IMG/VR virus record: IMGVR_UViG_3300043433_000032
Location: 1 to 35,615 of that record
Reading direction: 5' to 3' (one strand)
DNA: 35,615 nt
DNA from: a virus
The notes beneath the pieces are model-generated. The model searched no databases and was not told the DNA's origin. It worked only from the letters and a program-made list of their open reading frames with translations. A program made the translations under genes and the position numbers. Shown here in pieces: positions 3,977 through 23,166 of this stretch (the first letter of the stretch is position 1; each line of letters opens with the position of its first letter).

Positions 3977-4699
3977 CTACGTTGGTTGCACGATTAATAC
4001 TTTTCTTTTACTTCCAAAAGTTTGAATAGTTATTGTATTTAAAGATGCAGTTCCGCTATATGCACCTGTTATTCCAGTTGTCCAACTACTAGGATATGAC
4101 AATGTGAAATTTCCACTAACCTCTAAGGTTATTGTTTTTGTTGTTCCGCTAGCTGGCGCATTGCTTTCTGTTAAAGTAGTGTTTCCAGTTAGTGTCAAAT
4201 CCCAAACATTACCAGCAGAATAATCAATATTATAAGTACCCGTTACGGCTGCGTTGGTAATTAATATTTCAGACAATAACTCACTAACTGGCTTCATTCC
4301 CTGCGTTCCATCTGCGTTTTTTAAATAAACTTTTTCAACATCAACGGTTGAAACTTTAGAAACAAACAAGGCATTCAAAACCGTGATTAATTTCGCTTTA
4401 ATATTTAACCAAGTTGTTATCTTTTGATTGTTTGTGTCTGAAGAATCTGTAAAATTAATTTTGTCAGAATCTTGAATATCATCTTCAGGAGGAAGTGCGG
4501 CACAAATTGCTCCAAACGTATCGCTTATCAAGACCTCTTGCTTATTAGCTGCTAGACTCTCAATTTCTGTTTCTGTAGCCTTTACGGCATCAACGATTTG
4601 GTTTACCTCCTCAGCAAATAAATAATGCTCAGTTGGCTTACCAGCAACTGCGGCTAACTTTTCGGCACTATCTACTTTTACTTCAACATCTAAAGCCAT
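3977..4699 (-). CDS. tail fibre-like protein
   Basis: 240 residues. An N-terminal helical region (HYLFAEEVNQIVDAVKATETEIESLAANKQEV, about 25-57) is of the kind that trimerises, followed by a Ser/Thr/Gly-rich beta region (TLTGNTTLT, LEVSGNFTLSYPSSW) ending at the C-terminus. This composition is usual for fibre shafts. It lies between two other fibre-region genes with 2-base gaps. Confidence 0.6.
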   Translation of the reverse strand: MALDVEVKVDSAEKLAAVAGKPTEHYLFAEEVNQIVDAVKATETEIESLAANKQEVLISDTFGAICAALPPEDDIQDSDKINFTDSSDTNNQKITTWLNIKAKLITVLNALFVSKVSTVDVEKVYLKNADGTQGMKPVSELLSEILITNAAVTGTYNIDYSAGNVWDLTLTGNTTLTESNAPASGTTKTITLEVSGNFTLSYPSSWTTGITGAYSGTASLNTITIQTFGSKRKVLIVQPT

Positions 4700-21049: not shown

Positions 21050-22297
21050 ATGGCAAAAGAAAAAACAGAAGGCACAGAAGCGTATGGAACAGCAACGCCT
21101 GTGTTCGAATTAGCAGGTCAAGGTGTGTGGAAGGTTAAAGGAGCAGGTAAGAATTATGTATCTGGAATTGTTCCGAAAACTGTTACACAAACTAGAAAAG
21201 ATATAAAGGAGTGGCTAACGGCTCAGCAAATGGCAACTGCCGCTGAAAATGCCAAACGTTTCCCATTGTATAATTTATATGCTGAAATTCAAAAGGATTT
21301 ACACTTACGCTCACAGATCAATAACCGTATGTTGAAATCGCTTTCGAGAGCTTTTGTTATTAAAGACAAAAACGGAAAGATTGACGATGATTTAACAGCT
21401 CTTTTAAACAATCAAGATTGGGTGTATGGAATCAACAAAGCCATTTTAGAAACTGTTTACAACGGGCATTCATTAATTGAGCTTAATTATGTTAATGAAA
21501 AATTAAGTACTAGCTTAATTCCACGTCAGAATGTTGATCCCGTAAATGGATTAATCTTTTTAGATTATACTGACGATGGTAAAAAAATCGAATATCGAAA
21601 ACAAAAAGAATACGGCTCTTGGTTGATGGAGTTTGGAGACTACAAAGATTTAGGTCTTTTAAACGGTTGCGTGCCTCATGTTTTATTCAAAAGATTTGGA
21701 CAAAGTTGTTGGAGTGAATTAGCTGAAATTTACGGTATTCCGCCACGTGTTATGAAAACTAACACACAGGATAGAGTAATGGTTAACAGAGCAAAACAAA
21801 TGATGACCGATATGGGTTCTGCAGCCTGGTTTATTATTGATGATTCTGAAAGCTTCGAATTTGCAAAAGGTGTAAGTACAAACGGTGATGTTTACAAAAA
21901 CTTAATAACTCTTTGTAATAACGAAATGTCGATGGGAATCAGTGGAGCTGTTGTTGGTCAAGATACTGCTAACGGTTCTAATGCTAAAGAATCGACTTCG
22001 ATTTCAATAGTACAGGATTTAGTAGATAGTGATTTGACTTTACTAGAGCAACATTGGAACTCAACTGTGATTCCAGGACTAGTGATTTTAGGAATTGTTC
22101 CTGAAGGATATTCTTATGGTTATGATCAAGCTGAAGATTTAGAGCAATTATGGAAAATGACAGTTGAAGCCGCTAACTTTTTAGAGGTTGACCCTGAATG
22201 GGTGAAAACTAAATTCGGTATTGAAGTAACTGGAACAAAAAAAGCAGATACATCAAGTAAATTGTCTTTAAATATTGGTGACGGTTTTTTCGTATAG
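21050..22297 (+). CDS. portal protein (DUF935, Mu gp29-like)
   Basis: 415 residues from the ATG at 21050, one base after the gp36-like stop. The frame is open further upstream, but that part overlaps the gp36-like gene and is not portal-like. Core features: LHLRSQINNRMLKSLSRAFVIK, ILETVYNGHSLIELNY, FKRFGQSCWSELAEIYGIPPRV, MSMGISGAVVGQDTANGSNAKESTSI. The 3' end carries a slippery sequence GGT TTT TTC and a hairpin (separate entry), so part of the product is probably a portal-gpF fusion of about 705 residues. Confidence 0.85.
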   Translation: MAKEKTEGTEAYGTATPVFELAGQGVWKVKGAGKNYVSGIVPKTVTQTRKDIKEWLTAQQMATAAENAKRFPLYNLYAEIQKDLHLRSQINNRMLKSLSRAFVIKDKNGKIDDDLTALLNNQDWVYGINKAILETVYNGHSLIELNYVNEKLSTSLIPRQNVDPVNGLIFLDYTDDGKKIEYRKQKEYGSWLMEFGDYKDLGLLNGCVPHVLFKRFGQSCWSELAEIYGIPPRVMKTNTQDRVMVNRAKQMMTDMGSAAWFIIDDSESFEFAKGVSTNGDVYKNLITLCNNEMSMGISGAVVGQDTANGSNAKESTSISIVQDLVDSDLTLLEQHWNSTVIPGLVILGIVPEGYSYGYDQAEDLEQLWKMTVEAANFLEVDPEWVKTKFGIEVTGTKKADTSSKLSLNIGDGFFV

Positions 22298-22316
22298 GCC
22301 CTGAATATTTCAGGGC
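22285..22316 (+). other. -1 frameshift signal: T TTT TTC heptamer, 6-nt spacer, 8-bp hairpin
   Basis: Zero-frame codons are GGT TTT TTC GTA TAG. The heptamer T TTT TTC is at 22285-22291, the spacer at 22292-22297, and the perfect stem GCCCTGAA/TTCAGGGC at 22298-22305 and 22309-22316 with a TAT loop. A -1 slip enters the gpF frame at 22291 (CGT ATA GGC CCT GAA). No T-run follows the hairpin, so it is not a terminator. Confidence 0.8.
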
Positions 22317-23166
22317 ATTACATACACGATTAGATAATTTATATAATTGTACTTGTGATGATTGTCAGGCTCAAAAAATAAGCATTAGTTTATCGTTAAA
22401 TGATAAGTTTAAACAGCTTTTAAACGATGGTAAAAAAGCGTTTAAACACTTGCATAAAAAGGGCAATTACAAGCCAGAAGATTTACAAAAAGAAAAGCCA
22501 TATCAAAATTTAGTGAAATCAACTTTTGATATTTTCAACTTTGCCATTGTAGATAATGATGTACCTGAAGAAATGAAAAAAGCTTTACAAAGTGATGCTT
22601 ATTTATTTGGTTCGTTAAAAACAAATGCGCAACTTTTTGAAGCTTCGAAATTACTTTTAAATGATGAAGGTAGACTAAAACCTTTTTCTGAAGTAAGTAA
22701 ACAGTTTGACAGTTTAAATGTAAACTATAACCAGAACTACTTGGAGGCGGAATATGAATTTGCGGTTGCGAGTTCTCAATCTGCCGCACAATGGGCAAAT
22801 CTTGGCGGTTCTGATAGATATAATTTACAATACAGAACGGCAAAAGATGAGCGAGTAAGAGCATCGCACCAAGCATTAGCGGATATTACTTTACCAAAGG
22901 AAGACCCGTTTTGGAGTTCTTTTTATCCACCTAACGGTTGGCGATGCAGATGTACTGCAGTTGAAGTATTGAAAGACAAATACGAGGCTAGCAGTTCAGA
23001 AACGGCAATAAAGGCAGGAGAAAAGGCCACGACGGAAGTTGGCAAAGATGGTAAAAACAGACTTGAAATTTTCCGATTTAATCCTGGACAAAAAGAGATT
23101 GTATTTCCACCAACGCATCCATACGGAAAAGTAAAAGGAGCTAAACAAATAAAAGATGAATCCTAA
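22291..23166 (+). CDS. Mu F-like head morphogenesis protein, probably made as portal-gpF -1 frameshift fusion
   Basis: The C-terminal region has the Phage_Mu_F signature: ERVRASHQALADITLPKEDPFWSSFYPPNGWRCRCTAVEV. The frame is open from 22282 without any ATG before about 22573, and only a TTG at 22450 could serve as a start. Yet the codons from 22291 to 22450 read as credible protein (GPEYFRALHTRLDNLYNCTCDDC), with a CxCxxC motif. The sequence therefore points to expression by a -1 frameshift from the portal gene. gpF-like proteins sit inside the head near the portal and may be ejected or act in assembly. Confidence 0.8.
   Translation, partial: RIGPEYFRALHTRLDNLYNCTCDDCQAQKISISLSLNDKFKQLLNDGKKAFKHLHKKGNYKPEDLQKEKPYQNLVKSTFDIFNFAIVDNDVPEEMKKALQSDAYLFGSLKTNAQLFEASKLLLNDEGRLKPFSEVSKQFDSLNVNYNQNYLEAEYEFAVASSQSAAQWANLGGSDRYNLQYRTAKDERVRASHQALADITLPKEDPFWSSFYPPNGWRCRCTAVEVLKDKYEASSSETAIKAGEKATTEVGKDGKNRLEIFRFNPGQKEIVFPPTHPYGKVKGAKQIKDES

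Follow-up and report, generated by a model that had tools for sequence, protein, structure and literature searches.

The portal/gpF junction of IMG/VR record IMGVR_UViG_3300043433_000032, a viral sequence of 35,615 bases analysed over its whole length and called the window here, raises the question of how a gpF-like head protein is made from a frame that lies at -1 relative to the upstream portal gene and offers no ATG near its beginning. Comparison with related sequences leads us to conclude that the junction very probably carries a -1 programmed ribosomal frameshift signal, one that belongs to Mu-like phages of Bacteroidota. A first-pass annotation of this DNA had described an in-phase T TTT TTC heptamer, a spacer of 6 nucleotides (nt) and an 8-bp hairpin at this place, followed by a -1 gpF frame without an ATG for about 290 bases; direct reading of the sequence reproduces that layout exactly, and the ATG-free stretch counts 291 nt. 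The elements concerned are as follows.

21050..22297, + strand: portal protein gene (Mu gp29/DUF935 type), 415 amino acids plus stop, the 0-frame product; PF06074 E 1e-68, phrog_113 E 1e-47
22285..22291, + strand: slippery heptamer T TTT TTC, in phase with the portal frame; read directly
22292..22297, + strand: 6-nt spacer GTATAG, which contains the portal stop TAG (22295-22297); read directly
22298..22316, + strand: putative stimulatory hairpin, 8-bp stem GCCCTGAA (22298-22305) / TTCAGGGC (22309-22316), loop TAT; z -4.97
22291..23166, + strand: gpF (Mu F/SPP1 gp7-like) coding region, -1 frame, counted from the slip site; 291 amino acids plus stop; PF04233 E 1.5e-11
22573..22575, + strand: first ATG of the gpF frame, at gpF residue 95 and +291 nt from the frame opening; possible internal start

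Both proteins pass the curated cut-offs of their families, the portal with 232.6 bits against a cut-off of 23.9 for Portal_Mu (PF06074) and gpF with 45.5 bits against 29.6 for Phage_Mu_F (PF04233). The portal frame closes with GGT (22283) TTT TTC GTA TAG, and the hairpin abuts this stop directly on its 3′ side, with a minimum free energy (MFE) of -14.3 kcal/mol that was equalled by none of 200 shuffles. The gpF frame opens at 22282 after a TGA and stops at 23164-23166; its earliest ATG, GTG or TTG is a TTG at 22450, and read-through from the portal frame would give a portal-gpF product of 705 residues.

Searched by DNA similarity against phage records, the window portal-gpF region gave no match, and relatives, from about 82% identity downwards, were gathered by searching viral contigs three times and genome contigs once. 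The second viral search was queried with conserved peptides from well downstream of the junction, which meant that the junction itself was not selected for. Portal and gpF hidden Markov models (HMMs) were run on the three forward frames, and in 145 of the 154 loci where both genes were detected gpF lay in the -1 frame and overlapped the end of the portal gene (HMM frame calls; some loci duplicate one another). Two of the 154 are in-frame portal-gpF fusions, and L106 and L120 are classed under other frames yet carry the signal, their gpF genes having downstream indels. The 145 loci derive from isolates, prophages and metagenomes, and the junctions extend from Flavobacterium through the Bacteroides hankyphage. 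Errors often arise at homopolymers, and in a sequence of metagenomic source the change of frame might be taken for a sequencing error or for a decaying pseudogene; that reading is already refuted because the relatives share the arrangement, it is further contradicted by their conserved signal and by purifying selection, and its probability is negligible.

The junction signal is real and far beyond chance, and relatives keep the heptamer in place. In-frame TTTTTTC is present at 111 of 120 distinct -1 junctions, comprising 108 scored as TTTTTTC and three p00-type loci in which it lies upstream of CCCGGGG, the last heptamer matched; eight of the other nine have another canonical heptamer, namely A AAT TTT (three), T TTT TTT (two), A AAA AAA, A AAA AAT and A AAA AAG. 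Elsewhere in those 111 portal genes there is no further in-frame TTTTTTC, and the loci range from 3 to 93% in Phe TTT usage and from 31 to 61% in G+C content. U_UUU_UUC is among the shifty motifs of E. coli, for which stimulators generally lie 5-8 nt downstream (PMC4066793). In Elizabethkingia phage TCUEAP3 the T TTT TTC is accompanied by a stem, GCTCCTCA/TGAGGAGC, and in the 111-kb Bacteroides phage BS-TP1 a long stem accompanies A AAT TTT. When the signal itself was used as the query, as the 17-base pattern TTTTTTCGNYTARGCCC against 301 genomes of one family, six exact places were found, four of them portal/gpF junctions with a hairpin, and a control pattern read backwards matched three times. 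Two signal-first matches, L180 and L181, have neither a portal match nor a hairpin and were set aside as chance.

A run of a single base could also act during transcription, with slippage of RNA polymerase on the T6 or A run bringing both genes into one frame in a fraction of transcripts. Transcriptional slippage would favour longer runs, but the T run is exactly six at 113 of 116 junctions and the next base is C at 114; it also requires neither an in-phase X XXY YYZ motif nor a hairpin 6 nt downstream. We regard it as very unlikely indeed for the junction as a whole. At the A-run junctions of Peternella_1 (L049) and fF4 (L058), which like L119 are without a clear hairpin, it is quite possible, and as possible as ribosomal frameshifting.

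The hairpin is conserved as a structure. In 45-nt windows the mean MFE is -15.5 kcal/mol directly 3′ of the heptamer, as against about -6 across most of the 300 nt to each side, and the best stem begins 6, 5 or 4 nt past the heptamer at 119 of 123 junctions. These 123 junctions use 70 distinct stems, including the swapped arms GCCC/GGGC and GGGC/GCCC, counts that lean towards pairing because the stem finder looks for pairs (median score 12 at random positions in the same loci versus 20 at junctions). In a separately aligned set of 33 (A3), 99.6% of cells are paired and 16 changes are two-sided, with a covariation score that none of 500 shuffles reached; controls with a slid partner were paired in 25-69% of cells. 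The heptamer and hairpin that the first-pass annotation proposed seeking in homologs are both kept widely in Mu-like phages of Bacteroidota. A GC-rich hairpin of this stability at a gene end might instead be a transcription terminator or a processing site beside an incidental heptamer, but the hairpin in the window has no T run after it, the spacing between heptamer and hairpin is fixed, and hankyphage-type hairpins lie within the overlap of the two genes, at least 20 nt upstream of the portal stop. A terminator or processing site has next to no probability.

The sequence beyond the slip point behaves as protein. The ratio of nonsynonymous to synonymous polymorphism (pN/pS) in the -1 frame is 0.38 over codons 1-17 after the slip, 0.46 over codons 17-52 and 0.32 further downstream, compared with values of about 1 or higher when the frame is shifted; because codons 1-17 overlap the hairpin, RNA constraint contributes to the low value there. 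Judged from these ratios in the relatives, purifying selection acts on the -1 frame from its first codons past the slip, which bears out the earlier impression that this part of the window reads like protein. An AlphaFold2 model of the 291-residue gpF product, built with alignment rows from the retrieved loci only, has a mean predicted local distance difference test score (pLDDT) of 85.9, rising to about 95 at residues 41-80, which lie upstream of the first ATG. A fold search with this model against the PDB gave no significant match (best E 0.43).

These data bear on the possibility that gpF is made alone, with no fusion, by initiation at the ATG at 22573, at a TTG such as that at 22450, or at a nonstandard codon, possibly through coupling with termination of the portal gene. 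Annotators have chosen a downstream codon as the gpF start in p00, TCUEAP3, Peternella_1 and BS-TP1, and in spot checks of Mu, D3112, Mushu virus and a Helicobacter prophage gpF has its own start, placed at the portal stop or shortly ahead of it, with no frameshift signal seen at the junction; Mu does keep portal and gpF as two separate genes, as had been stated. Nevertheless, selection in the -1 frame is purifying across the roughly 95 codons upstream of the ATG, and these codons encode a confidently modelled part of the fold, so they are translated. In the alignment of relatives, moreover, no column of ATG, GTG or TTG is conserved before residue ~95, and internal initiation leaves the heptamer and hairpin unexplained. 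We consider internal initiation alone very unlikely. That gpF depends on frameshifting, the central claim of the first-pass annotation, is supported by the heptamer, by the covarying hairpin and by the lack of a conserved start nearby; the public gpF annotations checked start in the wrong place, with N-terminal residues missing, and the present analysis corrects them.

Some observations weigh against dependence on frameshifting throughout these phages. An ATG at gpF residue ~95 is present in 72 of 89 relatives, and as an extra start it might add a short free gpF. Loss of the heptamer and hairpin from close relatives would have told against the proposal; among relatives arranged in this way only one is without a canonical heptamer, the close relative L003 (= L030), which reads GGG CTT TTT ATC TAA (3980-3995) and still has a U_UUU tetramer and the hairpin. 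In two Winoviridae, likewise spot-checked, pippi8-1 and FPSV-S1 (L050, L056), gpF is in the +1 frame with an annotated start 4 nt 3′ of the portal stop, and no junction signal was found, which means that some lineages can do without the fusion. As for the conserved ATG itself (22573-22575 in the window), it may encode a structural methionine or serve as an internal start.

Frameshifting would proceed as follows. The window and its relatives combine an in-phase heptamer, a downstream structure, a selected -1 frame and the absence of a nearby independent start, the features expected of a -1 frameshift. The hairpin would stall the ribosome with UUU in the P site and UUC in the A site; both tRNA-Phe would re-pair one base back, and a minority of ribosomes would pass the stop into gpF and produce the 705-residue portal-gpF fusion, while the majority would terminate at the stop just past the heptamer and release free portal. 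Fusion and free portal would then mix in one ring, and the rate of slipping would set the number of gpF domains that the ring carries.

Lineages in which portal and gpF are joined in frame offer a second view of the signal. Natural portal-gpF fusions, which the first-pass annotation had suggested looking for, were found in L057, L168 and L053, and phrog_35074 matches both portal and gpF. In the Porphyromonas gingivalis phage records L168, L184, L185 and L186 the two are one open reading frame (~853 amino acids), annotated as a single "portal", and all four have an in-frame T TTT TTC with GCCCCG/CGGGGC at the place equivalent to the junction, although conservation among these records is weak evidence since they are 93-100% identical. 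Slipping there is predicted to add 19 residues before a stop; L053 is likewise an in-frame fusion that keeps the signal, with a longer tail after the slip. In a quick portal tree (Shimodaira-Hasegawa-like approximate likelihood ratio test support only, some long branches) the P. gingivalis phages and L053 fall in different clades of frameshifting phages. In these fused lineages, then, slipping would release free portal, with the polarity reversed, and retention of the signal suggests that both products are wanted. Frameshifting of the dnaX type, in which the slipped ribosome soon meets a stop and makes a shorter product, resembles the outcome predicted for L168 and L053; it concerns another gene, and its polarity is opposite to that of the window.

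A parallel in composition is offered by SPP1, whose portal (gp6) holds one to two copies of gp7, a MuF protein (PMC5576092, PMC6316719). In SPP1 two separate genes encode gp6 and gp7, the portal and a minor capsid protein, and gp7 is targeted to the portal by a non-covalent interaction; in the window a covalent bond would take the place of that targeting. A slip rate of ~8-17%, assumed here so as to match the gp7 copy number in the literature, would give one or two gpF copies per 12-mer. In-frame portal-MuF fusions are also known from Microbacterium phages, where subclusters EA3, EA5 and EA8 and cluster EB have portal and MuF in one polypeptide (PMC7302621); every portal would carry MuF in such fusions, as opposed to only the slipped fraction in phages of the window type. 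Tentatively, and with a little less than even confidence, we propose that the slip is a stoichiometric device selected for a mixed portal ring with few covalent gpF subunits (in relatives, subunits with a toxin-like effector), kept under either polarity, and that in the P. gingivalis phages and L053 the same signal now makes free portal.

The cargo of such a ring would differ among phages. Many relatives have a longer gpF, in some with variable C-terminal domains: gpF of L010 ends in a toxin-like ADP-ribosyltransferase domain (ART/ADPrib_exo_Tox) and that of L021 in a toxin-like CdiA_C domain, and an LPD3 domain occurs in L028 and L038 and weakly in L023. The window gpF ends ~68 residues past its MuF domain, with no further Pfam match C-terminal to that domain. 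L010 and L021, unlike the window, thus resemble the MuF polymorphic toxins (PMC5576092; Bxa, PMC11699363), and in phages with an effector-bearing gpF the slip would likewise determine how much of the C-terminal domain is supplied. A term search of these two toxin papers found no mention of frameshifting. At the other end of gpF, shortly 3′ of the hairpin, the window encodes a C-x-C-x2-C motif, YNCTCDDC (22342-22365, gpF residues 18-25), which is conserved in the flavobacterial group, is absent from L052, L054 and L055, and possibly binds metal.

Frameshifting at the portal/MuF junction would, if true, explain how a portal ring acquires few gpF subunits in widespread phages, including the gut hankyphage and phages of Flavobacterium, Elizabethkingia and Winogradskyella, and it would offer a way of dosing virions with MuF effector domains. 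It is also a simple, testable case of recoding that sets the composition of a symmetric ring, and the occurrence of two polarities suggests selection on making both products. In-frame portal-MuF fusions and -1 frameshifting in phages are each known, and as far as we have seen their combination is undescribed: a search by term of open-licence literature found no published description of frameshifting at this junction.

The junction lies in a head module that comprises terminase large subunit (phrog_38), a Gp36-like adaptor, the Mu-type portal, the gpF-like protein and a gpG/tail-completion-like protein. The established phage counterparts are the -1 frameshifts of tail assembly chaperones, which include the lambda G/GT type, SPP1 17.5 at UUUUUUC and PaMx73 at T TTT TTC and have in common with the present case a -1 slip on a canonical heptamer that yields two products in a set ratio, the major one short and the minor one long (PMC6316719, PMC4378225). 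They differ in the genes involved, since here these are the portal and a minor head protein, and the long product would be a ring subunit with a second domain; the lambda G/GT site is found within the tail assembly chaperone gene, ahead of the tape measure gene, whereas that of the window junction lies in the portal gene. The window also holds a candidate of the classical G/GT type on the - strand: a putative tail assembly chaperone G (12960-12512) has an in-frame A AAA AAG (12667-12661) just 5′ of its stop, and its -1 extension of 49 residues ends just upstream of the tape measure gene.
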